Part shown: in pieces, positions 14,061 through 53,510 of the stretch
Layout: the number at the start of each line of letters is the position of its first letter
How positions within the stretch are numbered: position 1 is the stretch's first letter
Assembly: GCF_040807025.1 (NCBI RefSeq)
Contig: NC_090964.1
Location: 5,766,001-5,830,000 of the forward strand
Reading direction: 5' to 3'
Source: Struthio camelus
Lineage: Eukaryota; Chordata; Aves; Struthioniformes; Struthionidae
DNA length: 64,000 nt
The notes under the pieces: generated by a model
Databases searched by the model: none
Told to the model about the DNA's origin: nothing
What the model saw: the letters and a program-made list of their open reading frames with translations, nothing else
Translations under genes and position numbers: made by a program

Positions 14061-14133
14061 CGGCGGGCGTCTCGGTGTCCAGCGCGCAGACCCGCAGGGC
14101 GAGGGCGAGGAGCAGCGCCCGGGCGCTTCGCAT
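14061..14133 (-). CDS. PTPRU: PTPRU coding exon 1 (start codon and signal peptide)
   Basis: PTPRU is a type IIB (MAM-domain) receptor protein tyrosine phosphatase at the plasma membrane, involved in homophilic adhesion and catenin signalling. Only the first coding exon is here. Reading down from 14133 it encodes MRSARALLLALALRVCAL and then DTETPA: a hydrophobic signal peptide followed by a start of mature chain that closely resembles the human N-terminus (remembered as ending ETETPAAG). The start has a good context (ACC before ATG). The exon ends after one base of codon 25 at a clean GTGAGG donor. An in-frame upstream ATG at 14250 would add an Arg/Pro-rich stretch before the signal peptide, so 14133 is preferred. 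Position and orientation beside MECR match the conserved neighbourhood. Confidence 0.88.
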
Positions 14134-18910: not shown

Positions 18911-18917
18911 CCACCAC

Positions 18918-28900: not shown

Positions 28901-31900
28901 GGGGGCAGGCACCTGCTGACTGGTTGCGTAGCTGTTGCTAAAAGTGCGACCTGGAGCCTGATGCCCTGACCCAAACCTGGAGTCAGGAACGTATCTGAGC
29001 GCGAGCTTGCGTGCTGCTCGGCCCGGGAGCCGCCTCTAGCTCTGGTCCCGGCCGGCTCGCGAGCGAGTCTCCAGCCAGAAGGGTCAGCGCCCTGACATGC
29101 CGTTTGGCTCAGCTCCCCGTAAGACTCTCGATACAATTTTGGGGAGTCTTTAACAGCCTGATTACAGGATGCAAATTCCTGCGGGCTAAAAGCCTCCTGA
29201 CAAGTGCGTCGTACTATTTAATTCCAAGCTCAAAGCTGTCTAGAAATCAGCCGTGCAGCTTCGAGGAGGGGAAGGGGGGAGACGCTTTGCCAGCACAGGA
29301 CAAGCTGTGAAAAGAATCGAGTATACCGTTCCTAATGACATGTACTTAGCAGGATGTAATTGCAGCAAATAACTGTTCTTAAAATTGGCAGTCGCGCAGG
29401 GGCTGCGCTACCTCCTTTTCAGAGCCGGTAGCTCGCTCAAATGTAGTTAAAATTGCCCTCATCTTGCAAATGGGCAAGTCTCAATGGATTTGCCCTGGAC
29501 GGGAGATAGGGCAGACAGTAATCAAGCGCTGGGCTCCTCTTTCTTGTGATCTCTGTCGCAGGGCGCTTTCTGGCTCCCGCTCTCCGGAGTAACTTCTCTC
29601 CGTACGCGACCTCTTGCTGCACCCTGCCTTTCTTCCTTTGCTTCCTGTAATGACGCAGAGCTGCTGGGTGCTCGGAGTCGTGTGGTCACAAGGCCCAAGG
29701 CATCCCAAAAGTTTTAGCAGCTACCTGGTGTTACGTGGCAGTTCTCCCTGCGGCCGTGCAGCTCCAGGAGAAAGCGGGCTTGTGGGAGTCCTTCACGTCT
29801 TTCCAAGGGAGATAAGCTAAGTTTAAGCAACCCTTCTAACCCTGCTCTTCCTCCAGTGTAAGAGCGTTTCCATCTGCTTTAAAACGGTCTTGTGGCAAAG
29901 GGGTTGGGGAGGTCTTCTGCCTTGGAGGAGCTTTTTTCCATGCAAGAAGTATTGGGAGTTCATCCCTACCCCCGGCACTGCTGCCCACAGCTCCCTGGGA
30001 AGAAGGCATGGTGAGGACATGTCCCCAGGTAGAGGGGGTGGTTTTTGGGGAGCAGTGGAGTCTTGATGCAGTTGTCTTAGGTTGGATATTGGGCTTTTTG
30101 CTAAAGGAGACCAGGCTGAGGTGATAGCAAAATACGTTGTGGGGAAAAGAGTGCTGTGGCATATTAGACATAAGATAATACAAGAATCTCTTTTCAGGTT
30201 ATACCATGTGCAAAAGACATCAGCCAAGCACATATTAATGCACTTCTACTTTGTGTGTCCCTGTGCAGACTAAAAGACCTAGAGATGGCCAAGCTGGGGG
30301 ATTCTCATGTTCATGTCAAGATGTTAGCAGCCCCTATCAATCCAGCAGACATCAACATGATCCAAGGTAACCCGGCTTCTGCAGCTCAACTGCCTTTTTG
30401 CTGCCAAGCAGCTTAATTTTCATTCCATCCATGAAACGCTCGCCTGTTCTCCCTGATGAGCACCGTGCTGTCAGGCACAGACCACACAAATGGGCCGCTA
30501 GACTGTCTGTGATGTGCCCAGCAGGACATCTGAAACGGTTCAGAGCCCTGTTCCTGGTGTTATCCTGGGACTAGCCCTTAGCACACCAAGGGGAGAAGCT
30601 TGTGATTCACCACAGGCTTGGTGCAAAGCCATCTGCTCCTCACGCTCTGGCTTCCTTGCAGGGACGTACGCCATCCTCTCCGAGCTGCCGGCAGTAGGGG
30701 GCAATGAAGGCGTTGGCCAAGTGGTGGAGATCGGCAGTCGTGTGACGTCCGTGAAACCTGGCGACTGGGTGATCCCAGCAGACACTGGACTTGGTGAGCC
30801 AAACTCCTGGGGACAGGTCCATGGTGCAAGAGTGGTAGCTTCATTGGCTGCGCGGATGAGTATGGCAACGTGGGCTGCCTGTTGGCTTATCTCATAGCTT
30901 TTGGCTAGTATCATCCACTGCAGACCTCGGCACGTGGCCAGCACAGGGCACAGCTCACCCCGTGTCTCGGCCAGGAAGACGCTTGCTGAGACCCGGGGCA
31001 GTAGTGACCTCCCCAGCACGCTGCAGCAGTGGCGTTTGGCAGGGACCTGACGCGAGTTTCTGGCACATGCCTGTGCTTTAACGGGTAGGAAATGCACTTT
31101 GGTGTGGTGATGGGCAGAGCTGTGGGGACAGTGCCAGCACTTAGACCTGCACGAACGTTTCGGCTAAGCTTGCTACTGGGGACCAGGGCTTGGTGGAGCA
31201 GAAGATGGTTTTCCCAAAATGAAGGGTGCTACAGGTATTGCAGAGGTCACGTCTGGAGCAGCTGGTTGCTCCTGTCATCCCTGGAGCTATCTAGACCCCG
31301 TATCATCCATGGTCACCAGCAAGGTCTTCCTGGGTGCTGCCCTCACCTGTAGCACCTCGTCCCAGGGGCTTTTCAGGGTGCTTGGCACCGCTGGCGGCTG
31401 TTACGGCAGAGCTGAGAGCAAACCCATACCCTGAGTAAAGCCCAAGGCTCCTGTTCCCGGCATCTCCCTGGCACTCCTGCATCCCTTTGCCTCCCTTGTG
31501 AGCTGTTGCTTTCAGGGTTGGCCCAAGAGATTTAGGGGTTTATCCGCCCTAGAGCTGTCCTGGAGCAAAATCATTCCTCTCCGAAGTGCTGTATTTGCTT
31601 AGCACAGCTATAATCACATGCACCTCCCAGGTACAGCAATTACATCTAATCGGATGTGACTTAAAAAGAAAAAAACTCCATTAGAGAATGTTCCAGGCGA
31701 GGAAAGCAGCAGTTGGAATCCATTTAGTGCCATATTAGCCTAATCATAAATATAATGGGCTGTATTGTCTCAGACGAGAAGCAGCTGGATAGCTGACGGA
31801 GCTGTACAAAGGCCTCTTAATATCTTACCTGTTTCTGTACAGTTTCAAGCATTATTCTTTCTGTCGCTTGTTTTTGAACGCTTTTTTTTAAGGGAGCTCG

Positions 31901-34900
31901 GTAGCTGATACCAACCACAGTGAGTCAGGCTGCCATTGCCCTTCGTCCGCAGGAACGGTAGGGCCCCAGGGAAACGCAGGGTGCAAAAGAGGTGACGCGG
32001 GCCGCGTGTGTCCCTGCGCCTTGCTGCCTCCCCGGTGCTCCCCGGCATCGGTACCGCAGGCGCGGGAGCTCGCGTGGGTCGTGCTCGCTCATCGACGTTG
32101 CTTGTCGTAACGCGAGAACCCGAAGCACTTCCAAGGTGAGCAGTGGCGGTGCCGTTGCTTGTGCTACACTTGAATTCAGAAATAATTTGGTTTTCTGTAG
32201 TGTAGCGCCATCGCGGGCCTTCTGAACCGTTATAAAACGTTATAGCAATCTGCTGTTCTCTGGAAACAACTGGGTTTTGTCACATCTGCTTATGGCTTCT
32301 TCACAGACACGGGATAAAGCATTTAACCTGCGCAAGGTTGTACTTATATCTCACTGCAGTTCTCTCCTTAAGAGTGCTTTGATGGGAAAGCATGGGAATT
32401 TATTTTTAAACAAATGTCTCCTGTGCTACTCGAAAATACCAATGGCCAGAAAAATTGCCAGTTCAGGTTTAGCATAAGAGCTTGTTCCTTGCCTATTTCT
32501 TTTCAAAAGGCTTTTTCACTTAATGGGGGAAGGAAAGCTATCTAGTTAAGATCCAAATGTGATGTTTTTAAACGTTAAAAAAGGTAAATGGATGATAGGG
32601 GGTTAAATCTGATATAGAGTCACTAAATCTAAGTAAATTGGCTTTGAATATATGGGCTCATCTGTAGGATATGGAGTATTTCTATTAGCTCTGCGCACTC
32701 TCTGCACTCAAGGAGCCCCAGTCCTATTATGCATCTAGGAAATGATTAGACTTTTCTAGGTATTAAATCTCTCTTGTTCCTGGGCAACCGGGGATTCGTC
32801 TCCTGTCTCCCGCAGGTGTCCTAACAAGGCAAAGGCAGTGTGCGCTGCGAGGTGTATGATAGTATTTTGCCTAGAAACCCTGTAAATGGCATCGCAGTCG
32901 TTCAGTGCGTGTACGGACTGGGGGGAACCTCTCTTACCCTGGGACATTGGGCACGTTTCACACCAGCAGTGTCGGCGTGCGGGACGCGACGGCCCTTGGA
33001 GCAGCAAATCCCAGGAAGCAGAAGCAGAGCCGCTTTGCCAGCGGTGCAGAGCAGGGTGCAGATACCTGCCGTGGGAGCTCCCCTCGGCCCCGGGGTCGTT
33101 GCTTGCTGATACGCAAACCCAGCAGAGGCTGCCGAGCAACCCACAGTCTCTCTGCTGTGCTGTGGAGAGCGGAGGCAGGACTTTGCAGATCTTGTGCTGT
33201 CGGCTGAGCGTACGCTAGATTTGCACAAGTGCCCTCAAAGCCTACGTGGAGACTGAGCTCCTAAGGTGTTTTTGCATCTTTCTGAACAAGTCCTGAAGAA
33301 ATGCATGAAATTGCAATGAAACCTTACCTCCGGCCTGCAAATTGCTTTGGGCACCAGCTGTCGGTGGGTTTCCCCTCTTTTGGTGAAGTGTTTCCTGTGC
33401 CCTAGGGACGTGGCGGACGGAAGCAGTGTTCCCCGAAGGGACCCTGCTGCGAGTGCCCAGTGACATCCCCGTGCTCTGCGCCGCCACCCTGAGCGTCAAC
33501 CCCTGCACGGCGTACAGGATGCTGGCCGACTTTGAGACCCTGAGGCCGGGTACGTGTTGGGCTGCAGGGACCCGAGGTTCTCATCAGCGTTACCCATCAG
33601 CTGTGACCCGTTTCGTGAAGACGGGGACACAAATGTGTGGCTTCCCCTCACTGCAGCCAGTCTTGGCAAATGTCCCGGCAGCGCCAGGAGGGGAGTCTGC
33701 ACGGCTGGAGAGAAGAGGGATGGTTGCTTGCGGTTCCCTTGCCAAAATCCACTAGTCCTCACAGCCAGGGGCACCTGAAAGGCTGCCTTGCGTGCGGTAC
33801 CGTGGAGGAAATGAGTTTTAGTGGGCCTATCAGTCACTTCTGCACCAAATCCTTAACCCAAGTAGTCTCGCCATCACAGCCCTGGCAGAGGTGGAGGCAG
33901 AGCAGTTGCCTTCTCCTTCCCGAGGGCAAAGCAACAGCACGGGCCTTGGCATGGGGCTCAGTGTCACACTAGCTGGGCTCTTAGCTTGCGGGCAGGAGGC
34001 CACCGGTCCCCCAGGAGTGCTCAAAGGCCGAGCTGAGCCGGTTTCTGTGCTGCTCCACAGGTGACTCTGTCATCCAGAACGCTGCCAACAGCGGCGTGGG
34101 CCAGGCCGTGATCCAGATCGCGAAAGCCTCCGGCATCAGGACCATCAACGTGGTCCGAGACAGGTGAGTGGTGGCGTGGACGGCTGGAGACCCCTCCTGG
34201 GAAGGTAGGAGGTTTCCAAGGAGCAGGAAAGGAGGGCGAGCAGGGAAGGCTGAAACGCTGACAACGCTGGTGAGATGGGAGGAGACCCCCGTCAGCAGCA
34301 GCTGGGGTTAGCGCAGGCTCCCATGGCGGAGAGGGGCTGGAAGGTGCCTCCCAGCCTCTGCTCTACCACATCTCCTGCATGTCTGCATGTGAGCAAGAGG
34401 GAGATGAAGGTGATGCTCTTTCCTTTCTGACTAATCAGAAATGTCTCTTCCCCCCCCACGCCCACAGACCTGATCTCCCAAAGCTGGTGGAAAGATTGAT
34501 GTCCCTTGGTGCAGACCATGTCATCACAGAAGAAATGCTGAGAAAGCCAGACATGAAGGATTTATTTAAGGTACTCACTGTTGATCCCTCCAGAGAGAAA
34601 ATCCAAGGCTGTCCCAGTTGCTCCGTACTTTGAGCAAAGGTGCAAGGATGCTGGAAAGGACAAATATGAAATAAGCTCTTCCTAATTCGCCAGGCAGGCA
34701 ACCATCATGTTCAGGCTGTAAGTCATTAAGGACAGATATGAGGTTAACAAATAGCATTCTTGCACTCTTTCCTAAGTCACTAGTTGCCATGCATATTTAT
34801 CCTCTCATGTAACTGAACGTGCCCATCTGCTAATAGAAATATGTACTAAATCTGCCAAACTCCTGGTCTCAAAGTGCCTTTCACAAAGTGTTGCCTTACC

Positions 34901-37900
34901 AGCAATAAACCGGGACGTGTTCATCTCTCCTGCTCTGATTAACTTGTTACTTCTCATCCCTTCTCCAAGCTGAGCAGTGTGTTTGGCATCTACCTGGCTG
35001 TACCAGGAACAGTTTTCACAGTTAAATCAGAAAAAGGTCTCTGAGGGGACCAGACCAGAGGTAGAGGCACTGCAGTGAAGTGCTGCACCTTGATATACTG
35101 CAGGGAATGTCCTGTCCTGGCAGAGGTGCAATAAATGTCTCTGGGGAGTATCCCCTGGGCATGAGTTTTCCTGCTTCCCTTGGAGTGGTTTCACTTGAGC
35201 TTTCTCTGGATTGGGATTTAGCCCTGCAGGGCTGGGAGCTTTCGCTGCTGCTATGAGGCTCAGCCTCCCAATTTTGGCTCTGGTTATGATTCTTGGCTGC
35301 CTTCAAGTAAACACTGGGGTTAAGGCAGTTGCTCCTTCAGGAGCTGTGGTCTCACGCTCAAGAGAAGGGAACCCTGAAATTTGGGAACCTTCTTAATCAA
35401 CTTTTCCTGCTCACTGCTCTCCCCTGCTGCTGCAACCGTGACTCTTTCAGAGCATCCCAAAGCCCCGGCTCGCCCTGAACTGCGTCGGAGGGAAAAGCAC
35501 TACTGAGATGCTGCGGCACCTGCAGTAAGTTTGGCTCTTTGCCCCGGATGTTGGGTGGTGGCTTCTGGGCAGGCTTCAGCAGCACCAGGGTGGGCCTGCT
35601 CCAGAGTGCTCGGAGTGCAGGGTGGGGACTGGAGATGTTAGTAGCTGATGGCAGTCCTCATTGAGATTTCGGTGCGGGAAGAGGAGTGCAAGGGGAGAAG
35701 TCTTGGGGAAATAATAATAACTGAAAGTTAACCTATCATCGCCTCCTCTCCCACTTGTCTCAAACCTTTCTGTCAGTGGCATGAGGCGAAAGACATCTGA
35801 AATCTGAGTTACGAATGTCCATCGGGTGCTGGCCAGGTTCAAGGGTTGGCTGGTGTATCTAACAGCAAATTCAGCTACTGCTGTGTGCAGGGAAGAGGGG
35901 AAGTCTAGAAAGCGGAGTTGAACAGATATTTAGAGGAGCCTTTGGTGCGAGGATAGCCCCATCCGCACAGCGATGGGTTTGGGTATGACAGAGGAGGAGG
36001 CAAAAAGTGAGGCCAACGATCCGTGTTGGAGATCGCAGATACCTAAATACCTCGTTCCTCTTCCAGGCACAAAGGGACCATGGTCACCTATGGAGGAATG
36101 GCGAAGCAGCCTGTGATGGTCCCTGTGGTGAGTATTTGAGATGCTCTTGACTTGTCGTGGTATTGAATAGCCTTCTTGCTTACAGGCATGTCTGCTTTGC
36201 CATGCTGCCGATACACAGGTGCTCTGAGGCATTCGCACCTCTAATTGCTTCTTGCCCATCATTCTTGGTACCACTGTCCTTGCTGGAAGGACCGCATGAG
36301 CTTGCTCTCGCCTTCCTTCAGTAGGAGGGTTCATCTGCCGCCATCTGTTGTTGGAGGCTCTGAATTTAATGTTCAAAACTCTTTTTAAACTGACTGGGTC
36401 TGTTGCAAGATGAGCTGGTTTGCACCTCTGGTGCAGGTCTCTTGCATTATGTGTGAAGGAACTGGCTGGTGTGAACTCCCAGCCTGGGAAGTCGCCCAGC
36501 AGACACTGAGTAACAAACGCTCCCTGAAATGAGCTGATCTCGCATATCAGAGTCGCATCCCTGTATCCCTCTGTGCTCCGACTGCAATCTAGTTTTATTC
36601 TGGCAAGGTAAAGCCCCTCTAACCCTGGACCTGTAGCAGCTCATAGCTGTGGTGCCATGGAGACCCTGGGATAATGTGAGGCGTTTCATTAACGTGAACT
36701 TGCTAAAGTGAATTTGTCACAAATTAAAGCTCTAACGGAAGAGTGAAGATCCTCATCGCCACCTTTCAACCGCTGTCAAACTTGCAAGAGCTTAGAAATA
36801 TACTGGGGGGAGCTCTCGCCTTCTGGCGTATGTGGAACAGACACGCATATTGGTGAGTGTCTCCCTGTTTCCGCAGAGTGCGTTCATCTTCAAGGATGTG
36901 AAGCTCCGTGGATTCTGGATGACCCAGTGGAAGAAAGACCAAATGCACAGTAAGTTGGCGGTTGCCATCCCAGGTGCAGATGCCGAAGGATGTCATTGAA
37001 GTGGCAGGTCGACATGTTCATGGCTGACCTGTCACTCCTGTGCTGGGATACCCTCCCTGTTTGCTCTTATTCGGTCATGAGTTTGATCGTTCTCAGACCT
37101 GCTGAAGTGCAGCCAGGGAGGCTGAAGCACTAGTTTGGAAAGAAGATGCCTCCTGGCGTTCCTCAGTACCTCCTATTGCTCCCCCTTGTCTTGTCACACT
37201 TGTCTGGGGTAATACAGCTGCAAAGTCCTGACAAGCCTTGCTGGAGCAAATGGAGCTGAGTGTAACTGTCTGACTTCACTGGGGGTCGGTGGGAAGAGCC
37301 ACCTGTGCATCAGGAGTGAATTTGGCCCGTGGTCCCGTTTGCCACCAGCTGATGGATTTGGGCAGCTTTACACTTGGTCCAAAAGCCATTTCTACAACTC
37401 CTTGGGAATCCAGTTAAGGCACATGTTGGATTGACTTGTCTTTCCCCAGGCCCTGTCCCAGAAGGGGTCTAAAGCACTGGCCCAGCTTTGCTGGGGGAGG
37501 TAAACCAGAACATCTGGTTCACTGAGCCAGAGCTGTGGAAGCTGCCACCTCATCCCCCCTGTGTCCCCAAGAGCGGCTGGTGATAGGTGCAGGAGCAGAG
37601 GCATGTGCTGGGCAGCGACCTACGGCTGTGCACCCCCCCCCCAAGGCAGTTTGGGGAGCTGGGGGAGCTCCGCTTCGGGGTGGTGCAGGTTGTACAAGGA
37701 CTGGGGATGTTCTGGCCAAAGGTGACCCCTGTACCCAATCCCTGCCCTGTGCTGCCCCATGGGTGCCAGCTGCTGCTGAGCAAGCAGGGCTCGGGCTAAC
37801 ACAGCTGTAGCCCTAACCCAAATGCCTGAGCTGGGAGCACAGTGCATGTGCTTTGCACCCCAGGGCTGTGTTGGCTGCAGAGCCTGTGCCGCCAGGACCC

Positions 37901-38172
37901 GCTCCGGTGTTGGTTTTGGCAGGTATTTTGCCTGAGAACTACTTGGTGGCTCTGGCTTATTGCAGGTGTGGGATATGGCAGGATAAGAGTTATCTCCTTC
38001 CCCTGCAGACAAGGACAACCTGGAGAGCATGATACAGAGCTTGTGTGAGCTCATTCGGAAAGGGCAGCTCACCGCACCAGCATGCACGGAGATCCCGCTC
38101 GAGGACTACAGGACAGCCCTGGAGGCCTCCATGAAGCCGTTCACATCATCGAAACAGATACTCATCCTGTGA
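25809..38172 (+). CDS. MECR: MECR, mitochondrial trans-2-enoyl-CoA/ACP reductase (ten coding exons)
   Basis: MECR carries out the last step of each mitochondrial fatty-acid synthesis (FASII) cycle, NADPH-dependent reduction of trans-2-enoyl-ACP/CoA, supporting lipoate supply. Coding exons: 25809-25951, 30269-30366, 30662-30793, 33406-33549, 34061-34163, 34468-34570, 35451-35524, 36067-36127, 36877-36949, 38009-38172. Together 1095 bp, 364 codons plus TGA, close to the human 373. All introns are GT-AG and every junction keeps frame. The N-terminus is Ala/Arg-rich without acidic residues until after residue 35, as expected for a mitochondrial presequence. Tyr83 (in [16 protein letters not shown]) matches the catalytic Tyr of the family. 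NSGVGQ at 182-187 is the Rossmann nucleotide-binding turn. The C-terminus [14 protein letters not shown] matches the family. It looks intact. It belongs to the medium-chain dehydrogenase/reductase superfamily without the catalytic zinc. Confidence 0.96.
25952..30268 (+). other. MECR: MECR intron 1
   Basis: 4.3 kb. Its first 600 bases are a G-rich minisatellite (listed separately). The rest is mixed-GC DNA with CpG-rich segments at 26860-27220 and 28430-29060 and no supported exon. Confidence 0.85.
25975..26560. repeat. G-rich minisatellite in MECR intron 1
   Basis: Two related families. At 25975-26330 there is a period of about 77-80 bases containing GGCAAGGCTGAGGGCATTGCA and GGGGCACATTGCAATAGG. 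At 26330-26460 there is a period of about 35 bases (GGGGGTGCAGGTGTAGAGTG, GGCAATGCAGTGG). Strong G/C strand asymmetry with many GGGG runs. The proline-rich minus-strand ORFs over it are artefacts. Confidence 0.9.
30269..30366 (+). CDS. MECR: MECR coding exon 2
   Basis: Acceptor CTGTGCAG, donor GTAACC. Encodes [10 protein letters not shown] and the highly conserved [16 protein letters not shown] of the catalytic GroES-like domain. 98 bp. Confidence 0.95.
30662..30793 (+). CDS. MECR: MECR coding exon 3
   Basis: Acceptor CTTCCTTGCAG, donor GTGAGC. Encodes [20 protein letters not shown] with the catalytic Tyr, and [13 protein letters not shown]. 132 bp. Confidence 0.95.
30794..33405 (+). other. 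MECR: MECR intron 3
   Basis: 2.6 kb with no exon seen. The AT-rich block 31590-31845 is dense in TAAT motifs and near-palindromes (see findings). Confidence 0.8.
33406..33549 (+). CDS. MECR: MECR coding exon 4
   Basis: Acceptor GTGCCCTAG, donor GTACGT. Encodes [20 protein letters not shown] and [15 protein letters not shown]. 144 bp. Confidence 0.95.
34061..34163 (+). CDS. MECR: MECR coding exon 5
   Basis: Acceptor TGCTCCACAG, donor GTGAGT. Encodes [20 protein letters not shown], the nucleotide-binding turn of the Rossmann domain. 103 bp. Confidence 0.95.
34468..34570 (+). CDS. MECR: MECR coding exon 6
   Basis: Acceptor CGCCCACAG after a C-rich tract, donor GTACTC. Encodes [19 protein letters not shown] and the following [14 protein letters not shown]. 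103 bp. Confidence 0.95.
35451..35524 (+). CDS. MECR: MECR coding exon 7
   Basis: Acceptor GACTCTTTCAG, donor GTAAGT. Encodes [20 protein letters not shown], which contains the family's [10 protein letters not shown] motif. 74 bp. Confidence 0.95.
36067..36127 (+). CDS. MECR: MECR coding exon 8
   Basis: Acceptor CCTCTTCCAG, donor GTGAGT. Encodes [20 protein letters not shown]. 61 bp, too short to stand out as an ORF. Confidence 0.95.
36877..36949 (+). CDS. MECR: MECR coding exon 9
   Basis: Acceptor TTTCCGCAG, donor GTAAGT. Encodes [20 protein letters not shown] and DQMH. 73 bp. Confidence 0.95.
38009..38172 (+). CDS. MECR: MECR coding exon 10 and stop
   Basis: Acceptor CCCCTGCAG. Encodes [19 protein letters not shown] and continues to SSKQILIL followed by TGA at 38170-38172. 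164 bp. Confidence 0.95.
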
Positions 38173-39655
38173 CTCCCCGAGGGAGGGCTCAGGTGTTGCA
38201 GCAGGCTGAACTGCAGGTGCTTCCCATCACGCTGGACCCTGTAACTGGATCCCAGCTGGCTTACAAACATTTCCTTTGCCATGTTGTCTGCAGGGGAAGG
38301 TACTAAGGGGAGAAAAACAACTCTAGATCCATCAATTTTTTTGCCCACTTGAAGTTTCAAAAGCCTCTGCAACTTTGCATAAATGGCACTGTGAGAGCAG
38401 GTTATAATTGCTTTTGGAGAGAGATTCCAACCTTGCTTTAGCTTAGATGAGTTTCATTGCAATGGAAAGCTCAGGGTGTTAAGGCAGCTGTTGCAGGAAT
38501 TGCAGGCAGGGGTGACTGCAGGTGATCAGGCAGCTGAGGATGTGAGGAGCAAAAGTTCCCATTTGGGTGCATTTGTGTAACAACAGGAAGGGCAGTAAGT
38601 TCGTTCTGCCATCCACGGTAGCTGCTCGCTGCCTTCTGCCTCATTTACTAGCTCTAACTTTCATTCTGCTGTTTATATTGCCGTCACCTCCAGGTGATTC
38701 AGGCTCTTCTCAGGTCGCTTTGCAGGGAAGTGCACAGCTGGTTGATGCTTACCTCTGAGCCAGCACTGGCACAGCCAAACCTTCCGCTGCTAAAGGCACT
38801 CTTGCTCTTGGCCACCCCACAACACGCAGAGGCCCAGCAGCGTCCAGCAGAGCGGGATCGGAGACTGCTGTCCCTGCTCTGATATCGGGCGGTCTCTTGC
38901 TAAGTGCTGCTCAGCTGTGCTGCAGCCTCAGCCAGTGCCAGGCCACGTTGAGGGCATTGCCATCACAGGTCCATGAGCTCAGGATGACCCCAATCCCTCC
39001 CACCCTTGGGAGGAAAACAGGGCAACGCAGCTGCACTTGCAGCCTAGCACCAGCTGCTGTTTGGGACCTACTATAGGGACAGGCACTGCCAGGACAGGCA
39101 GGATTGCGTTGGGGGTGCAGTGATACATGCCTGCATGCCATTGCTTTGATCATCATCGCAAATTAAATCCAATGAGACAGAGGGTCGGATATGAACATGA
39201 ACTTTAAAGCACTGGCTGAAGATTACAGGGTCGCCTGGTGCCAGCAGGCTGCTCTGCCAACGCAGCCGCTGGGCTCGCCTGCATGAATGGCGTGCTCCTC
39301 CGGGTGCATTTCCTCAGCCTCCTCTGCCAGGAGCAGTGGCTCCATCATTGCCAGCCTCAGGGTGAAATGCTGAGCCAGACAGATGCTAGGGGGACATGCA
39401 CTCCTTTGAAAGCATTGCAATGCCTTCCCTTGGGAGACAGGCTGGGGTGCGAGGAGGTGATCGGCTCTCTTGGCCTGTGGGATTAGTCGCTCTCCAAGGT
39501 GGATGGTCCAGAGTGGGGACAAATGGAGCAGGTGAGGAGGTGTCCAGTGCAAATCATGAGGACAAGCCCACTCCCTGCAAGAGAGGAGGGTCTGTGTGAG
39601 GCCTCCCAGCATCTGGGACCTCCGTGGCATTACAGACAGACCACCCTGGGCAGGC

Positions 39656-42600
39656 TCAGGTGTTGAGGGCTTTGCCCAGAGGAAAAGGAGGCTGGAGAAA
39701 TGGCATAAAAACAAGCAGAAATGAAGACTTACCAAGCGCCAGCCACCACTGCCACACCAGCGGGAACTGTCCCATCACTGCAAGACACAGCAGACATGTC
39801 AGGGAGTGCCTCAGTTCTCGTGTCCCTGTGTTTGAGCTGGGGATGGGACTCCCCTCCTGGTTTGCAGCTGGATTTTCCCAGGGCCTTGGTCCTGGGTGCT
39901 GCGTCCAAGCCCTCAGTGGGAGCCCAGCTGCCTGCGTTGCCCTTGTTTGGGGTCTCAAATGCATGTAGGAAGGGGGTGGCTTTTTGCAGTACCTTGACTT
40001 GAACTAATTTTTGCTGCTGTTACTAAACCACTGGCACTATGATTGTGAGACTTGCAGAGAAATCTCTTTGAAATCAGTGTTTTAACTTTTTTTTTTTAAG
40101 ATGCTGTCAATAAATTTTTCTGTGTTCAGTTCTGTGCGACTTGCCTAGGCCGATTGTAAGTGCTGCTTCCCCAGCAAGCATAGTTAAGAAGGAAGACCTC
40201 GTACTGATCTCAAATTCACCTGCAGCTGTGCAAAGACTCCCATTGGTGTCTTGAGGCTTTGAAAGAGGACTAGGGTAGCTAACCTGCAGAATGTGCTAAA
40301 GCAGGATATTTGCATGGCTGTCCTGCTACAGGAAACTCTGACTGTAGCTCATCAGCTGCTCAGAGCTGTTCTGGCATTCATTCATCCATCATCCCTTAAT
40401 TTACTTCTGTTACTCCTCCCCATCTGTCTCTTGGCCTGGGAGCAGGCCAGGCCCCCAGGTACTGGGGCCCGGCCAGCACCGCTGCTGATTGACCCAGACA
40501 TGGGGATTGCGCTGGCAAGAAGCGCCTTGTGGCAAAGCTAATGAGCGAGGCCACGGAGCTGCATAGCCCTTTCCCCTTGCTAAATTATAGGTATTTATAC
40601 TGCAGCAAAACCATGCTGTTTGCACACAAGCAATTAAAAGCAGCAGGAGGAGGCAGGCTGTGGTCCTTGGGCAACCACCTCAAGGCTGCTGCGGGGGTGA
40701 CAGCACTGTCTCTGCTCCGTTAGCTCCAGCAGGGCACAAAAAGTGGTGTCTCTCTCCCCAAACTTTTGCCCCGGCCACGCGTGCTCACCGAGGCGGGTCA
40801 GCAGCACGTGGAACAGCGTGACGGTCACGGCGTAGTCCCAGACCCAGCGCTTCAGCAGCGCGGCGAAGAGGATGCTGCTGGTGAAGTACGTCAGCTCTGT
40901 GGCCAGCAGCCCCCCTGGGAGGTGAGAGGAGCCCTCTGAGCCTGCTGCGAGGCTGGGTTTTTTCCCCATCTAAATGCTACGGAGGTGCTTTGCAGCTGCA
41001 GTGCCTTCCCGTCCCCGTGCATTGCGTTCCCTCCCGCGGTGAAGCGCGCCTCTCGCTGCCAGGGAGCCTCGTGGCTTCGTGTCCCACCTGTCCCCCTTCT
41101 CATCGACTCACCCAGATATTTGGGGTTGGAAAGGGATGGTTCAGTCCTGAACTCGAAGGGGATGAGGCCATCAAAAGTGTCGAGCCTGCAGCGAGAGCGG
41201 GGAGGGAAAGGAACGCCGGTAGGGAAGCGGCCAAGGACGAGCCCTTGGACCAGGCGGTTATGGGACAGCCAGACCCCTCATCCCCGTGTCTCTCCACCAG
41301 GCCAGGTGCAAATGCCACCACCCATCAGTGCCACCCAAGCAGCCTCGGCACTACAGACGCCCTGTACCAGCCTGGCTCGTCCAACAGCTCTTGGCAAGTG
41401 TAGGCTCTGGCTGCTCTCCCCTGTTAAAACCAAATATTGTTTCTTTTACAGTGGAGCGAGGCATTAGAGACTTCTAAAACATGGTTTTCCCCCCAAGGCA
41501 TGACCCCTTCAAATACCCCTGCAGCCCCCCATGCCACCAAATACTCCTTTTCAGCTCCTTTTCCTAAAGAAGAGCTTTATGCACCCCACAGGTTTAAAAA
41601 CCCTGTAGATTTAAAAATCCCATAGATCTAAAACAACTTGTTTTAAACCTTCCATCGCACAGGCATCTTGGGCCACCGGGTGCTAGCTGGGGGCTCGCTG
41701 GCCCCCTCCGTCTCACCTGAGAGCCCCATGGCAGATGCTCGCCGTGACATAGTAGACGGTGTAGAAGATGCCCAGGCACAGCAGCAGCTGCAGGAGGAGG
41801 ATCTGCAACGGGAGCAGGGTTCCCTTTTTAAAAACAGGCCCATAGAAGAGTTAAAGTGTGACGGTTTAAGGATCTAATATGTTCTGGTGTGTTTAAGCCT
41901 TAGCAAAGGGTAATTTGCACTTCAGTGTAAACATTGTTGGAGCAGCCCATGATTGCTGCCCAAGTTTTGGAGAAAGTCGAGTGCTTCAATTGGAGAAACT
42001 TGCTGGCTAAGCAGTCGGTATCAGGGTTGGCTTAAAGGGCTAAAGCAGCTTTGGGGAGCCAGCAGGAGTCTCCTTTGCAGGAGACTGCAGGGAGATTATC
42101 TTCTTCATTTGTTCACTTCAATGTCTAAATCAGTCAAAGTTGGAAAATAAAAGGCAAAAGTTTGCAAGCGGCAGCAGCGGTGAGTAATAGGACCAAACTG
42201 TGGAAGGGGGCAGATCAGCCGTTTCCACCACCGCAAAGGGCATCGTGACCAAGAAGAGGTTGTTTGCAACCCAAAAATACGTTTTTAATCCCTCCGGCAT
42301 GGCGCGTGGGGCCACAAGCGTGGCTTGAGGACGCCTGCGGCCCGTGGGAGCCGTGGCCCCGCCGGTTTGCAGCTGGGGACGCCGGTCGTCCCCGCTCCCT
42401 CGCCCGGCCGAGACGTGCCGTTTCTCCGGCCCCGTCCCCAGCGTCCTTCTTCTCTAGGAAGGAGGAGGGAAGAAGAAGGAGAGGGAGCAGCGGGGGGCGG
42501 ATTATCCCCGGCAGGAGCGAGGCTCCCCGCGGCCTCGCCAGATGGCCGGGCAGAATTAGCCGCGGTGACGGGCAAAGCGAGCGGCCGCCCTTGCTGGCGC

Positions 42601-42786
42601 TGCCTCCCCGCCGTGCCAGCCCCGGTGACACCTCCGCTGCCCCCGCGTTTCCTTCCCCGAGCCGCGCTGCCCGCCGCGGCCGGCGCTGCCCCACAGAGCT
42701 CGCTGCGCCGGGCCGTCTCCGACACAGCGAAGCCCCGTTGCCCCCTTTACCTTGACGCTCGTCGCCCAGCTGCCGCGGCGGGTCAT
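39656..42786 (-). CDS. TMEM244-like small multipass membrane protein (at least four coding exons)
   Basis: A spliced minus-strand gene whose exons join in frame. Coding exons: 42786-42751, 41802-41717, 41185-41112, 40914-40789, then 39777-39733 (or read-through to a stop at 39656). All borders are GT-AG with good consensus. The product starts MTRRGSWATSVK, then TM1 (about 13-31, containing FYTVYYV), a loop with FDGLIPFEFRTEPSLSNP, TM2 (about 67-86, TELTYFTSSILFAALL), TM3 (about 89-106, WVWDYAVTVTLFHVLL) and the segment VMGQFPLVWQWWLALG. FYTVYYV, WVWDYA and the FPL..WW..ALG pattern match my recollection of vertebrate TMEM244 (about 128 aa, function unknown). Human TMEM244 is on chromosome 6, so this would be a second, related locus. 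No stop or frameshift is seen in the 123 residues joined. The exact C-terminus is unresolved, because a GTAAGT donor at 39732 may lead to a further exon I could not identify. Expression is unproven. Confidence 0.72.
39733..39777 (-). CDS. TMEM244-like coding exon 5 (possibly extends to 39656)
   Basis: Acceptor GTCTTGCAG, phase 1. Encodes VMGQFPLVWQWWLAL. Either spliced at GTAAGT after 39733, or continuing as GKSSFLLVFMPFLQPPFPLG to a stop at 39656-39658. Confidence 0.65.
40109..40114 (+). terminator. Poly(A) signal AATAAA (candidate, MECR distal)
   Basis: Perfect hexamer with a GT-rich element 10-25 bases downstream, in the MECR orientation. Confidence 0.5.
40789..40914 (-). CDS. TMEM244-like coding exon 4 (TM2 and TM3)
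   Basis: Acceptor CTCACCTCCCAG, donor GTGAGC. Encodes GGLLATELTYFTSSILFAAL, then LKRWVWDYAVTVTLFHVLLT and RL. 126 bp. WVWDYA is the most recognisable family motif. Confidence 0.78.
41112..41185 (-). CDS. TMEM244-like coding exon 3
   Basis: Acceptor GCTGCAG, donor GTGAGT. Encodes LDTFDGLIPFEFRTEPSLSN and PKYL. 74 bp; the loop between TM1 and TM2, comparable to the PFDFKTNPS region remembered from TMEM244. Confidence 0.75.
41717..41802 (-). CDS. TMEM244-like coding exon 2 (TM1)
   Basis: Acceptor CCCGTTGCAG, donor GTGAGA. Encodes ILLLQLLLCLGIFYTVYYV and then TASICHGAL: a clear membrane helix with the FYTVYYV motif. 86 bp, phase 0 to 2. Confidence 0.75.
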
Positions 42787-43110
42787 GAGCGAGCCGGGCT
42801 GCCGCCTGCGGGTGACCCGTGCCTGTGCCGCGCGCGGGGATTTGAGGCCGCGACGGCGGCTGCAGCGACGAGGCAGCCGCGAGGCGGCCGGCGTCGGCCC
42901 AGCGGAAAGCAGCACCCGGGCCTACCGCCAGCGCGTTCGCGCGCCGCTCGGCTTCTCCGACCGCGACATTGCAGCTGCGTCGGGTTTCTCGCACCGAAGT
43001 TTGCCACCGGCCACGAGACGGGCTTTGCACAGAGCTGGGATTTGTGCGCGCACGCGGGTGCATCGCAGGGGTTTTGCGCTCCTTCGACAGGAGCCGTCTC
43101 TCTTTAGATC
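42290..43110. promoter_or_regulatory. CpG island at the TMEM244-like 5' end
   Basis: CpG-dense stretch in contrast to its flanks, centred on the proposed first exon (42751-42786). It fits a promoter for the minus-strand gene. Confidence 0.5.
42751..42786 (-). CDS. TMEM244-like coding exon 1
   Basis: 12 codons, MTRRGSWATSVK, ending at donor GTAAAG (phase 0). The ATG lies in a CpG island. The same length and basic character as the N-terminal segment of TMEM244 before its first membrane helix. Confidence 0.6.
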
Positions 43111-45209: not shown

Positions 45210-45860
45210 ACCCCCGTGTCCATATGGGGAAGGGGGACCCCAGAGGCCCCCTGCTACTTGGGGGGACCCCCTAAGCACCCTGGCACATGTGGGACCCCCA
45301 TCAGCACCCTACGTTTGGGGAAGGGGGACCCATAGGTTCCCCCCCATAGGGGAAAGGGTTAATACCCTGCATAGGGGGAAGGGGTCTCTGTAAGTCCCCT
45401 GCTATATAGGGGACCCCCATAAGCACCCCAGCATATGGGGAACCCTCACAGTGCCCTGCATAAGGAAAGGGGGGGCCCATAAGTCCCCCCCATATGGGGA
45501 AAGGGGATCCCCATAAGTGCCCTGCATATAGGAAAGGGGGATCCCCGTTCATGCCCTACATATGGGGAAGGGGACCCCATCAGTGCCCCCCTATGGGAAG
45601 GGGGACCCCTATTAATACCTTGTATAGAGTGAAGGGGACTTCCATGAGTGCCCCCCTATGGGGAGGGGGACCCCCATTAATACCTTGTAATACCCCCATC
45701 AGTGCCCCACATGGGGAAAGGGGACCCCACAAGCCCCCCGCACCCCGGCACATGTGAGAAGGCCAGCAGCGCCCTACGCTTAGGGAAAGGGGGACCCCAT
45801 CACTCCCCCGCCATGGGCAACGGTCATAAGCCCCGGCACACGGGGCCCCCGCCTGGGCCC
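45210..45860. repeat. G-rich minisatellite upstream of SRSF4
   Basis: About 15 degenerate units of roughly 35-45 bases around the pattern CATATGGGGAAGGGGGACCCC followed by ATNAGTGCCCTGC. Many GGGG/CCCC runs that could form hairpins or quadruplexes. Ends about 235 bases before the SRSF4 start codon, abutting its core promoter. Confidence 0.88.
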
Positions 45861-46094: not shown

Positions 46095-46201
46095 ATGCCG
46101 CGGGTCTACATCGGCCGCCTCAGCTACCAGGCGCGCGAGCGGGACGTGGAGCGTTTCTTCAAGGGCTACGGCAAGATCCTCGAGGTGGACCTCAAGAACG
46201 G
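46095..46201 (+). CDS. SRSF4: SRSF4 coding exon 1
   Basis: Encodes [20 protein letters not shown] and [15 protein letters not shown], the first half of RRM1; donor GTGAGC. 107 bp. Start context GCCATGC. Confidence 0.97.
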
Positions 46202-49200
46202 GTGAGCCCGGCCGGCCCGGCCCCCCGCCGCCCGCCCGCCCGCCCGCCGCCGGAGCGCGGCCCGGCCCCGCTGCGCAGGCGCCGGCCGCTGACGGGAGCG
46301 GGCGGGGGGCAGGACGCCTGGGTCCCTTTGAGGGGCGGGGGGAGGACGCTTGGGGCAGAGGGCGAGGTCCCTAGCGGGGACGGGGCGCCTGGGCCCCCCT
46401 GGTTGGGGGGGGAGGGGGTAGGACGCCTGGGTCTCCTGGTGGGGGGGGGGGCTCAGGACGCCTGGGTCCCCTTGGGGGCGGGGGGGGGGCCTCAGGACGC
46501 CTGGGTCCCGCAGGGGTGGGGGGGGGGGCGGAACGTCTAGGTCTCCATGGCAGCGTTTGGAGGCAGGACGCCTGGGCCCCCGCTTCAGTGTTCGGGTGGG
46601 GGGGGGGGCAGGACGCCTGGGTCCCCTTGGCGATGGGGGGAGGGGGGAACGCCTGGGTCTCCATGGGAACGTTTGGGTGGGGGGTGTAGGGGTTCCCTTG
46701 GGGCTGGAGGGGAGCAGGGTGCTTGGGTCCCCACCTTGCTGGAGGCAGGGAGACAGCAAGCTGAGGTCCCCTTGGGGGGGGGGTCGGGGCAGCTGGGTCT
46801 CTGGCAGGGTTTGGGGTGGGATGGGCAGGATGCCTGGGTCCCCACCTGATCTCTGAGGGAGATGGTGTCTCCTGTGGTGGTTCCCCTGCTGTCCTGCCCC
46901 ACACACTGGCCCTTCCTTGCTCTGCAGCTGGAGGTGAGCACCCATGGGTGAGCCTGGCCACACCCTGGGATAGAGCCACTTCCCCCCCCCCCCCCCAACA
47001 TCCCCAATTCCACTGCAGCAGGTGCTGAGACCCACGCTTGCAGGGTCACCCACGGGTGCTGTTGCACTCATGGACAAGTACCTGCCTAGCTTTGCTAGTG
47101 GGTGCCTGTTAGTGTTGAGTTCAGGGAGTAGCGGCCCTCGAGGGTATTCGCAACCAGGAGCGGGGCAGGTGGGATGGGATCAGTCCGTAGCAACTGGTGT
47201 GGGTGAACTTCCCCCAAAGTAATGCTGAAATCTTAATATAATGTGTGCTTATACGTGTGTGCCGTTCTAGTGACTGATGTCTTGCTGTACCTAGATGGTT
47301 TTGGATCCTGCTCCACCAGGACTTGCCCAAGACATTCAAGTATGGATTTTCAAGAGAAAACAAATTGCGATTTTCCAACACTTAAGCCACCAGCCTAACA
47401 AGTGTTGGCATTTTTACTTTACAAGAAACCCAACTTGAAGTCTTGCTTTAGGGAGACTGAGTGGAATACGGATTTTGTTACTAGCCAGAACAGCCAATTA
47501 CTGTTTCCGCTTTAGAAGCGGAGAAGAGGAATCTCTTACAAAAGTTAGTCCTTTAGGGCAGAAAAAGGCTCGTTTTGTTTTAACGTTGTTTTTACTGGCA
47601 GGTTGATGTATACCAAGTTTATAAGGTGAATAAAAGCTATTCTTAAAACAAACAGGTGTGCATGTGTCAGTGTTTTATCCAACACAGCTTCAGGTAGGAT
47701 TGAAGATTGCTGGTAGCTGAAATACTTGAGGGTTCTGTGTGCCGGTTCCAGTCTGTGCCCATGAGGGTGTTCTGTGCTGTTAGTTTTCCTGTTGTGGTAT
47801 AAAAGTGCCAAATGAAAGAGAAATACTTCAGACAGTTGTTTAAAAAAAAACCAAACTTTATTAGCAGCTGTTTAAAAATTGCCAAATGACATGACTGATG
47901 CCGTTAACAGACTTATTTTCCTGCTTTACTGAAATCTATCTATTATTGACCAGACCTATGCTCCAAGCTCAGCTTTTGGAAGTCGCCGTTTGCGGGGACG
48001 AGGTGTGGATGCAGGAGGCTGCTTGTGTGTGTGCGTGCTTGAGACTGGCCCAGACTTGGAGTGTCAGACTTCTAGGTTCTTAAATGTGACTTGCACCTGG
48101 GACGTGGAGTGGAGAAGGAGGACGCAGCTGACCTGGATCTAAAATTTAGGTGCTCTGAACCTGAAGCAGAAATGACTTCAGCTCTGAAACAAAGCATAAC
48201 TTCACTTGGGGGAGACAAGAGTTCAGAAGTTACAGATAGCCACAGGAATAGAGGCAACTTAGAGTTGTATGATTGAGTTGTCATTCACCTTGCTGTTTGC
48301 TATTTCTATAGTGAATTGCTTCAGCTGTGAGTTAAATGGAGCTTAGTGTATATTTCTTGGGATTAACTCGAAAATTTAGTTCCTTTTGAGTTGTGTATTC
48401 TGAAATGTTTTCAACAAGCTATTGTTGGTTTGTAGTTAAAGTTCCAGTTTAACAAAAATCTACTTTAAAAACTCAGATTGTATGTCTCTCTCCTTGGGAT
48501 AATCTCGCACTGCAGTTTTGTCGAGGTGCTTTACAGTTTGCTTTGTTTATTCTCTGATCCTTTCTCCACAACTTATTTTTAGCAGTGCTTAGCAAATGAT
48601 TAAAAATTACTGCACAGTGTGTGACTTGAAGAGATTCTTTCAGCTCTTTCTAGGAAGTGTGGGTTATCTTAAATGTTCAGCCTGAAGGAGATTAGCTGTT
48701 CAGTATTTTAGCAGTTGGTGAAGTTAAGCTGAAAGCTTGAGCAAGAGAATGAAAGTGGAATGTGTCCTAAAAGCCTAGCTTGGGTCTTGATTGCTGGTAA
48801 TTATAATTTACAGCTTGCAATTCAAAGACTTAAAGCAATGTTTACCTGAGAGAAGAATGGGAAAATAAAAATCCAGTTTTTGTAGGATTCTCTATTTCAA
48901 TTGCCACTTCCAATTGTGTGCTCTTAGTTTTCATGTTTTGCTTGTTCCTGCTCAGAACTGTATTGATAGCTGGAGCCACGCGTGGCCATAATATATGTAT
49001 TAGGTGACCAGAAAATTGGACATTCCAGCCTGCTTTTTTTTATCTTCTAAAAACATGCTAAAAGCCAACAGTAATAATTCTAAGAGCTGGAAGCTTTCAT
49101 TTATGGTGAAACCAATTTGCAGTCTCAGCAGCTTAAGCAATCTTTTTGCCTATTTACTTATCTACCTTCCATCACTCTGACTTTCAAAAATTTGTGGCTT

Positions 49201-50963
49201 CATCCTCTAAAATCTTTGCAAGATGAAGGGATGTACTTTCTCCAACAAATTAAGGAACACAGATCAAAGCCAAAAGCTTCAAGTGTCAGTTCTTTCTTCT
49301 AGCTAGGTTCAAAATTTGTGTTTATTGCTTAAGGGGAAGTGGTTTGATTTCCCTCACCCCCCCCCCCCCAGGTATTTACTGCCCATTAACTTCAGTGAGA
49401 GTGACTGGCATCGAATGCCTTTGAAATTGGAGATATAGTGTATTAATACCTAGTATACCTAGGTGATAGATTTCCTTTTTTTTTTAATTTTAATTCCAGT
49501 AGCCTCTATGGATTTTCTTGCTTTACTAATATTGCTGTGCATAAGGTGAAACTTTCATCTGTTTTGCCTTAAATAGAGCATTCGGTTTTGCTAGAAGACC
49601 GAAGAGACTCTCAGATGTTTGTTGTCACTATGGAAACTTAAATATTGCTACCAAAAAATTCATGACTGGATCTTAAATATATTCCAAAGCGGTAACTTCA
49701 GTAACTTGTTTAAATGAGCATTAAGTTTCAAGTGGCCCAAAGATGCTTTTCCTCGATAAGCTCACCTTTCCGATCAGAGCGTAGGTGAGTACAGCTCAAA
49801 AGGTGGCCTTCCTCAGACCAAATGACTTGCGAGGAGTTCACTCTTTAACCTTTTGAGCCCTTTTAGGGCTGGAAGCGTTGTGTTCCTTATTCCAAATGAG
49901 GCCAAAGCCAGGAATCACGTGTGCGTGCATTTGCGCTTGGGTGGCTGCTCCTGTTGGTGGGTGCTGCCACCTGATTCCTCTCCTTCCAGAGGTGCTGGAG
50001 GGAGGAGGAGGTGTGGAGAGCTGAGTTCATTTTTGTAGCGTCTCTCCGTATGACTGTAAAATAGAATTAAGAAGGCTGTCAAGCTTGCGCTTTCTTGAGA
50101 AGAAAGTGGGACAGTACTTTAGGTAGGTCTCTTATTCTAAGAACATGTGAAATGCCAGTTGAGGCACTGGCCAGGCTCAGCCAGGCTGTGGACTGCCACT
50201 GCTCCTCTCCGTTTCATGGATTTTTTTTGCTTACGTTGGTGAAGGGACAATGGTTTTCAGTGAGTGGGCTTCATGCTTTAGGGCTCCACCAGTTCTCCAG
50301 CACCAGCCATTCGTAAGTATTGGAAAAACTTTGGCACCTTGTGAATGCCGTAGAAAAGGACTTTTGTGCTGGCTCTTGGCACGCCGGCACAGAGAGGAGT
50401 GTGCTGAGCCAGCAGGGAAGAACCCTGTGGCCTTAGGCGCCTTTGTACGTGGGGGAGCGGCTAAAAGGAGAAGAACACCAACTTTTTTTTCCTTTTATTT
50501 AGGGCATCGTGCAGTTTTAGAAGATTACATTTTTTTCCCTTCATTTCTGACTTAATCTCCCAAAAGGTGTTTTTTCTGTTTTGGTCTGCTAGAATTGCTT
50601 GGAATAAGGGCATATAGTCTTGTGGGTTTTTTCCTTTTTTGATACACAAACAGAAAATGGTGTAGCTTCACATTATCTGAAGTAAATTGCATTGACATTT
50701 TTAGTAAGTAGTTTTATGCCACATGTGAAGTAGTAATAGTAGATATTTAAAAGAAGATTTACTTGTACTACCATCATCAGGTTCAGATTGCTGTAGTTAA
50801 GGCTGTGTCAGCAACTGTGGCTTTCTGGGGTATAAAAGTACGCTTCTAAACGTTTTTGATTCATGTTTATAGATCATATGGTGCAATATTATATGTATTT
50901 AACAAAGGTGGGTCACAATTGCATTCATATCTGGGCTGTAGGGGTATGTATGTGGTGTGGTGT

Positions 50964-50996
<33 letters not shown>

Positions 50997-53470
50997 TATT
51001 TGAAAGCAGATGCTCTTTTGAGGTTTGCGTAAGCTTGCTAGGAGTGTTTTAACAAACCCCTGAAGTTCCTTGTTGTAACTTCTCATTTTTCCTTCCTGTC
51101 ACAGTGATGTCTTATTCCAGGACTACTTGCATTCTGTGTATTCCCACATGAGAGGGGTTAACGGTGTAGGATAAATGTTAAGTATTCCCTTTTGGAGCGA
51201 GTGGAAAGAAGAAGACAAAGCTAACGCCATCTATCAAGATTTAGTCAGGCTAAATCTGCTCTCTAGAGCCTCTTGGGAGAGTTTCATGGAAAACTCCTGT
51301 GCGTGAATTTGCATGAATTTGTAGGTGTTTTGCTTGAAGCCAGCTCTGGAGCAGTACCTAACCTACCGCTTGGTCAGCCATGTGCTGCTGCGGGCGCCCT
51401 GTTTTGTCTGGTTTAACACTGCGCTCTGGTGAAATTTCGATATTCCTCTGTTACGCTAGCTTCATCTCTTCATCCCTAGAACGCTATTGTCTTGCAAATG
51501 AGTGACTGGTGCAATACCAGACACTTCACCTTGTGCGTAATAGCCCCTGTGGTGAGATCCTCTTTAAATATGAGAGGATGTTTGCTCTGTTTTGGGGAGT
51601 GGAAGGAGGAGGAAAAAAGTTCCTATTGTACTTCTGAATTGAAAACTGTTGGAGTTTTACAATGGCTGTCATTGTTTCAGTTGTTATTAGTCAATCACAC
51701 TTGTTTCTTTCACCAAACTACAGCACTTGCATGAGAAAGCAGCTGCCTTGTGTAGTGTGTGGATATATTCTTAGTTAATAAATGTAACATTACATAGCGA
51801 AGGTTGCTGAGGCAGTGAAAATGCTTAAAAATGAAGTGACCTAAAAGGGGAGGTCAGCATTCTTGTGTAATGGATTTGCTTTTATGGATCACTTAAAACA
51901 CCAGTACTCACAAAAATGGTCCTCCTCTACTTGCTTGTGAAGACCTGAGTTCAGGATTGCGTTTGCTCTACAGCAACCAGAGATGTTGCAGCCAGCTGAA
52001 AAGAGACTCCCAATGCTGTGCAGGGCTGTGATAGCATCAGTTATTGCATGGGAGACTCTGAAGCCTGAATTTGGGTCTTGGCAGGTAAGTGAAGGACAAG
52101 TGGATTTCAACTGCAGGTAAACTCGGTCTGGACCCTGATTAACAGCATTCTGATGTTCTCTGTCCTTTTCTCTGGCCCATTTGGATAATGGGCACTTATA
52201 CAATCTTTATTTTTAAAATAGGTATTTTGCTCTGGCAGTTTAGAAATTGGCAGACTTGAGTTTTGTTTCGGTGCTGCTGTAGATTTGCTCGGCAACTGTA
52301 GGCAAGTCACCAGCTTGTCCCTGAGCACCAGCTGTAAGACACGTTATTTAAAAACCTATGTTCAGTCTTTTGAGATCTCTAGTCAGTAGAGATTAGGTAC
52401 TTGCAGCAGCCTGACCCCTTCTCTGATGTCTGTGACACCTCTGAGGATTAAAGAAATGCTAGCTTTAACTTTTCAGGCGAGCAGTGGTCTGCAAGCCTTG
52501 CGTATGTCTCTGTTATTTTCATTTGGTAATAGGAAACTGATTCAAAACCATTCATTTGTATGTTAAGAAAGTGTTACATTTTTTGAATTTGCATCCTTCA
52601 TCGTGCGCTTTGTCTGCCTGCGTTTCCAAAGTATTGAAGCAAGGCTAGTGCAACTTAGTTTTAAAACACGGGCCAATGCGTTGTCTGATCTTCTAGACCT
52701 GCACCCTCTGCTGCCATGCAAGGCCTCTTGGCCTTGGGTGGACCCTTTGTTCACCCTGGGAACTTGTTCCTGGCTATGGTTGCTGGATTTTCTTATGTCA
52801 GTAAATGAAGGTTTGGACTTGCCACGTTCTCTGAAATGCTGGGATTTTAGGAGCCTGGTGGACATAAAGCGCTCTCTCAGCGGTGTATGGGAAGCTGCAA
52901 GTATCTCAACAGGTTTAAGATCTGTCCTGTTGAATGTAGCTGCTTTTCATATCCAAATCATCAGTATTGTCCACAGTCAAGAATAAAATGAGTTTCTGAT
53001 TAAAACAAACAAAAAACCCTTTTCCTGACCCACCTTAACATTTTCTTTTTTTGTGAGACCTTCCAAGCAGGGCGTGCAGGACACTTGCAAACGCGTATTC
53101 CACTAAAAGTGTAGGAACTAAGGTGGCTTCCTAACATACGTAGTCTATCAGCCAGGAATGGAAAGCAGGGCTAAATCCTAATCCACTGAGCATATATCCT
53201 GTAATATCTGTCAAATGCTACTTCAGCCTAACTGTAGTCAGCAAACGTACTGAAGAAAGAAGCACAGCATCATATTTAGCAGGTGAGTGAGTGGGGTATG
53301 GTGCTCAGTGAGCTTGAACCCTCAGCCAGCCTTCAAGAGGTCGCAACTGATGTTCGCCTAAAGGACAGCACAGAGAGGTTCCCCCTTGGAGAGCTGCAGA
53401 AACCTCCTCTGGGATGTGGGTTGTTTTTGAGTATAGAAAACTGAGGAGTGGTTCTTTCTGAGCAGTTGTT

Positions 53471-53510
<40 letters not shown>

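Follow-up and report, generated by a model that had tools for sequence, protein, structure and literature searches.

The closest described counterparts of the gene considered here, which lies on the minus strand of a 64,000-nucleotide stretch of the ostrich (Struthio camelus) genome (hereafter the window; contig NC_090964.1, positions 5,766,001 to 5,830,000, or C23:5766001-5830000), are the little-studied TMEM244, located in humans at 6q22.33, and SYS1. Human TMEM244 has been described as possessing five exons and a presumed product of 128 residues (PMC9963807), and it is tabulated in a survey of three-span proteins (excerpt of PMC6987440). According to PMC7864062, SYS1 engages ARFRP1 through the acetylated N-terminal helix of the latter and brings it to the Golgi, and the presence of ARFRP1 at the Golgi leads to recruitment of ARL5 and its effectors, as stated in the accessible part of PMC11585589. 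Judged by titles and the openings of abstracts, none of the TMEM244 papers listed in our searches describes a second TMEM244 gene, and we found no literature joining TMEM244 with SYS1. The window very probably contains such a second TMEM244 gene (hereafter the window gene), real and intact, and most likely an ancient duplicate.

Gene model and paralogue

An initial annotation of the window, made from its letters alone, had proposed a TMEM244-like gene of five minus-strand exons. These five (exons 1 to 5 below) possess the GT donors, AG acceptors and single frame claimed for them, but the proposed end of the gene at 39656, giving 123 residues, does not stand: the TGA at 39656 is met only if the frame runs on into intron 5, and since a sixth exon follows the strong donor of exon 5 (39733, then gtaagt; exon 6 acceptor ttgcag), the protein has 152 residues. 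The exons are as follows.

Exon 1 (coding part), 42751..42786, minus strand: 36 nt, MTRRGSWATSVK; donor gtaaag, phase 0; inside a CpG island.
Exon 2, 41717..41802, minus strand: 86 nt; hydrophobic segment 1 with FYTVYYV; size and phase equal to those of exon 2 of the paralogue on contig C3 (see below).
Exon 3, 41112..41185, minus strand: 74 nt; loop with DGLxPFxFxTxPS; exon 3 of the paralogue on C3 contains NPSW.
Exon 4, 40789..40914, minus strand: 126 nt; hydrophobic segment 2, WVWDYAVTVT motif and the beginning of segment 3.
Exon 5, 39733..39777, minus strand: 45 nt, VMGQFPLVWQWWLALG.
Exon 6, 39483..39574, minus strand: 92 nt including the TAA stop; encodes the C-terminus with the last hydrophobic segment.

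All five introns are GT-AG (phases 0, 2, 1, 1, 1), and the six exons form one open frame of 459 bases including the stop, the longest exon being 126 nt, as initially noted. The motifs FYTVYYV and WVWDY, which the initial annotation had located in these exons, are each found a single time when the whole window is translated in six frames, in both cases within this gene, while one of the two occurrences of W-x-ALG falls within it. The hydropathy profile suggests about four hydrophobic stretches, with peaks near residues 13-31, 67-85, 97-115 and 118-136, of which the last two are poorly separated. The CpG island around exon 1 (42500-42999) has a GC content of 0.75 and an observed/expected CpG ratio of 1.12, and GC content at third codon positions (GC3) is 0.83 in the window gene, against a GC content of 0.56 in its introns.

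The window's own assembly (1.45 Gb, 262 contigs) contains, among the scored candidates, one further TMEM244-type gene. Searched with the window protein, the assembly returned eight matches at E <=10, five at the gene's own locus and three at 70.636-70.640 Mb of contig C3; the C3 protein, used in turn as the query, also returned eight, comprising five at its own locus, two in the window gene and one at a chance-level place (E 8.8). Read from 70 kb around its locus, the C3 gene has six exons of 33, 86, 74, 126, 45 and 95 bases, canonical splice sites and a protein of 152 residues, compared to 36, 86, 74, 126, 45 and 92 bases in the window gene, such that exons 2-5 are equal in both size and phase. 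Exons 2-5 constitute an independent match, while exons 1 and 6 of the C3 gene were sought in matching phase (phase 0 of intron 1 being by design). The phases of introns 2-5 agree between the two genes, and in the alignment each of the five introns falls at the same position in both; the six-exon structure with phases 0, 2, 1, 1, 1 that the window gene matches is defined by the C3 gene rather than by a curated source. The proteins are identical at 67 of 151 aligned residues (44%), with exon 4 ranging from 36% to 50%. Identity at codon positions 1, 2 and 3 is 52, 74 and 30%, and divergence between the two copies is thus constrained at the level of the protein. The C3 partner of exon 6 lies after C3 exon 5, at 70634406-70634312, and scores 46 against window exon 6. 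Among 1031 AG-bounded candidate stretches over the 35 kb that follow C3 exon 5, the next best scores 35 (the top score being shared by the upstream extension of that exon), and a score of 46 was reached by none of 5000 shuffles.

Letters targeted by short hairpin RNAs (shRNAs) in exons 3, 4 and 5 of human TMEM244, printed in the accessible part of PMC9963807, encode PSWLNI, EEWVWDY and WAALGI respectively, in one frame each. At these places the C3 gene reads PSWIDP, EEWVWDY and WLALGS, and the window gene PSLSNP, KRWVWDY and WLALGS, so that the core motifs are common and the flanks differ, the latter as would be expected for a paralogue. Because the C3 gene carries the EEWVWDY encoded by the human letters, it is, by this sequence evidence, TMEM244 proper, and both copies belong to the TMEM244 family. 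Closer to the human letters, and sitting in the block with the other TMEM200/4.1 pair, the C3 gene fills the place of orthologue of human TMEM244 and the window gene does not, and since TMEM244 itself sits on a different contig, the window gene is not a relocated TMEM244. Contig C3 presumably corresponds to human 6q, where we take ARHGAP18 to be a neighbour of TMEM244. In a medaka gene list, TMEM244 is placed two gene models from ARHGAP18 (available part of PMC9597887).

Besides exon number, the sizes of exons 2-5 and intron positions, the window and C3 genes share WVWDYAVTVT and WWLALGSG. They differ in chromosome block, in the KR that replaces EE before WVWDY in the window gene, and in GC3 (0.83 in the window gene versus 0.42 in TMEM244 on C3). 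Judging from these comparisons of sequence, the window locus is very probably an intact coding paralogue of TMEM244; the second family member initially proposed is borne out by homology, exon structure and synteny within the same genome.

SYS1 family membership and proposed function

In Pfam, the joined window protein matches SYS1 (PF09801) at 27.2 bits, against a curated cut-off of 22.3 (E 5e-6), covering positions 13-134 of the 144 in the profile, and SYS1 is the sole family found at E <=1. The C3 protein also exceeds the cut-off, at 28.1 bits. None of nine versions of the window protein shuffled in 12-residue blocks, a procedure that keeps its hydrophobic outline, matches SYS1, and the matches of these to other families are weak, with none above cut-off. 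A search of solved structures with the window protein gave a single match at chance level (E 1), a scan of viral contigs with the joined protein gave seven pattern matches of which none were confirmed, and a scan of the window against Rfam gave no matches at gathering scores.

SYS1 itself is a gene with three coding exons and two introns on contig C18, to which the window protein is 22% and the C3 protein 24% identical. In addition to the near full-length profile match, 21 columns are identical across the window protein, the C3 protein and SYS1, including YY, D92, VTV, H101, FP and WW. However, SYS1 has a longer loop, and in the alignment neither of its two introns coincides with any of the five of the TMEM244 type. 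By its profile match, the window gene is thus placed in the SYS1 family, yet it is not SYS1, given the absence of common introns and the location of SYS1 itself on C18.

Family membership suggests a potential function. The window gene would be transcribed from the CpG-island promoter and translated into a SYS1-family membrane protein with four spans, which would sit in a Golgi-type membrane, as SYS1 does, and would there hold a small ARF-like GTPase via the modified N-terminal helix of the latter, perhaps in a tissue- or cargo-specific manner. By analogy with SYS1, we suggest tentatively that the window protein may act in the Golgi membrane as the receptor of an ARF-like GTPase; the family match behind this suggestion is distant (22% identity to SYS1), which counts against it. 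An alternative hypothesis, to which we give somewhat less than an even chance, is that the protein is functional but no longer binds ARF-like GTPases, having become for example a structural or lipid-related protein of the Golgi or endoplasmic reticulum. Identity to SYS1 of just 22%, and a SYS1 loop and tail that are not conserved, are in keeping with such a change, whereas retention of the YY, D-VTV-H and FP-WW columns of SYS1 in both TMEM244 copies argues for continuity with the receptor.

Chromosomal block and origin

The window and C3 genes are each embedded among members of the same families, namely MAM (PTPRU/K/M/T type), TMEM200 (DUF2371) and 4.1-CTD (EPB41 type), where the names of individual genes inside these three families are those we presume to apply. 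On C23, the order is MAM (5756535, minus strand), the window gene (5.805-5.809 Mb, minus), TMEM200 (5918235, plus) and 4.1-CTD (5.933-5.936 Mb, minus), and on C3 it is MAM (69853642, minus), TMEM244 (70.634-70.647 Mb, minus), TMEM200 (70900169, plus) and 4.1-CTD (71.090-71.095 Mb, minus). Order and orientation are consequently equal for all four families examined. Genome-wide, there are 42 matches to MAM, three to TMEM200 and 11 to 4.1-CTD, the last on four contigs; the four MAM matches used are those closest to members of the other families, and the remainder are situated elsewhere, some of them on C2 and C3.

Vertebrate genomes were duplicated early in their history, and the pattern of this block fits those events. 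We consider it highly probable that the window gene is a whole-genome-duplication paralogue (ohnologue) of TMEM244, with an early vertebrate date the most likely, and the gene and this origin, taken jointly, are strongly favoured. A potential alternative is that the window gene arose by small-scale duplication or transposition of TMEM244. Only two copies were found, and a third block, on C2 (MAM 117.06, minus; TMEM200 117.85, plus; 4.1-CTD 118.10 Mb, plus), yielded no TMEM244 match in searches with either the window or the C3 protein, as small-scale duplication would allow; yet the equal order and orientation of four families on C23 and C3, the retained introns and the deep divergence of the two copies make such an origin improbable. 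Moreover, since its introns are kept, the window gene is not a retrocopy.

Contig C18 carries SYS1 (7.64 Mb) together with 4.1-CTD (0.26 Mb) and MAM (5.03 Mb) matches, which we take to be of EPB41L1 and PTPRT type respectively, and which represent a fourth family set of the block, megabases apart. With these families present on C18, the window gene was also considered as a recent duplicate of SYS1, but this origin is not favoured, because introns are not common to the two genes and the C18 matches lie megabases from one another.

In the window, the gene is located between MECR and SRSF4, as initially annotated, both neighbours being readable in the sequence. Features flanking the gene are as follows.

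MECR, 30631..38172, plus strand: match to the human MECR structure 2vcy at approximately 30631-30798 (E 4.2e-17); C-terminal exon, presumed from its motif, ending at approximately 38172.
SRSF4, 46095..58690, plus strand: first RNA recognition motif exon from 46095, RS domain to 58690; name assumed from the protein sequence as we know it.
PTPRU exon 1, 14098..14133, minus strand: start of the signal peptide, which we take to be that of PTPRU from its protein sequence; the MAM exon is on the same strand, beyond the window (C23:5756535).

Three tandem repeats were also observed. Beside PTPRU exon 1, a GC-rich minisatellite at 14513-15582 is open in several frames on both strands, with a unit of 54 bases present in 15.3 copies (96% matches) at 14612-15441; an array with periods of 11/55 bases, of CCACCATGGAC type, occupies 18914-19254; and a repeat of 65-66 bases lies at 45450-45689, in the interval from the window gene to SRSF4 exon 1.

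Published gene lists give similar neighbours. A table for chicken chromosome 23 gives EPB41, TMEM200B, SRSF4, MECR and PTPRU in order, with an empty SRSF4-MECR interval in the portion available (PMC11507135), and a second chicken list places PTPRU, MECR and SRSF4 near one site on chromosome 23, naming no gene between SRSF4 and MECR in its available part (PMC9412053). Consequently, the window locus can be regarded as chicken-chromosome-23-like. In humans, a list for 1p, which does not represent gene order, includes MECR, SRSF4, PTPRU, TMEM200B and EPB41, and the passage concerned contains no TMEM244-like gene (PMC8269103). Since such lists possibly include named genes only, a gene annotated without a name may nevertheless be present.

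Coding status and the human gene

A further hypothesis is that the locus is transcribed but that its protein is neither made nor needed, such that it represents a dying gene or a non-coding RNA, as has been claimed for human TMEM244. We regard this as quite improbable, although several observations weigh in its favour or otherwise against an intact and constrained gene. For human TMEM244, the closest studied relative, the available part of PMC9963807 reports no detectable protein, even upon FLAG-tagged overexpression, and terms the gene a non-coding, long non-coding RNA. In the window, the minus strand contains no AATAAA or ATTAAA from the stop down to 37001, a canonical poly(A) hexamer thus not being found near the gene, and past the stop only weaker variants occur over this interval (AGTAAA at 38649, TATAAA at 38677, and others). 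Exon 1 is the least certain exon and is poorly conserved between the two copies, the C3 candidate (MALKVKTAETK) scoring 12 against window exon 1, with 10 for the next of seven phase-0 candidates. By the Nei-Gojobori method (NG86), non-synonymous divergence between the copies amounts to 0.52, and saturation of synonymous sites means that no ratio of the two (dN/dS) is obtainable; it is the intactness of the window copy, together with the C3 paralogue, that points to constraint on that copy, within one species. In addition, an exon-by-exon Pfam search of the genome found SYS1 on C18 only (two matches among 12 candidates) and neither TMEM244-type gene, the cut-off being passed only by the joined proteins.

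Set against a dying or non-coding locus are the intact frame of 152 codons with its five GT-AG introns, the domination of divergence from the paralogue by third positions, and a simulation of neutral decay, itself rough, with assumed rates and indels set at 1/10 of the substitution rate. Under the latter, copies remained intact in 3.5% of cases at 0.05 substitutions per site and in 0.05% at 0.1. A long-dead copy is accordingly unlikely, while a recently released copy may be compatible with the simulation.

Finally, that the exons are a chance join of unrelated open stretches is barely credible: short exons can be assembled by eye within 64 kb, but the Pfam match (E 5e-6) and the failure of all nine shuffles argue for more than chance, and a paralogue with equal exon 2-5 sizes and phases was found later.

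With respect to our reading of the window locus as a second, intact TMEM244 gene, the human gene offers an instructive comparison. Human exon 5 reads TTTAGGTATATC; at this place the C3 gene shows CACTAG and then the donor gtataatt (C3:70635319-70634312 region). Human TMEM244 appears to be read straight through the old donor, so that exon 6, and with it the last hydrophobic segment, is left out, and we infer that the human gene is truncated. Loss of the last exon and span would explain why human TMEM244 protein has gone undetected. A broader scenario, which we put forward as possible rather than probable, is that two TMEM244 genes, encoding Golgi GTPase receptors of the SYS1 family, existed at the start of the vertebrates; that mammals lost the window copy, a loss that is plausible in itself, and human TMEM244 was cut short without its last exon and span; and that birds or sauropsids keep both genes at full length.

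The window gene illustrates how a gene composed of six short exons can be missed by methods based on open frames. It links TMEM244 with the SYS1 family as well as with a duplicated chromosome block, and provides a full-length standard by which to judge human TMEM244, which is short and in lymphoma has been reported as a non-coding RNA. If the above scenario is true, birds or sauropsids would have retained a broader repertoire of Golgi GTPase receptors.

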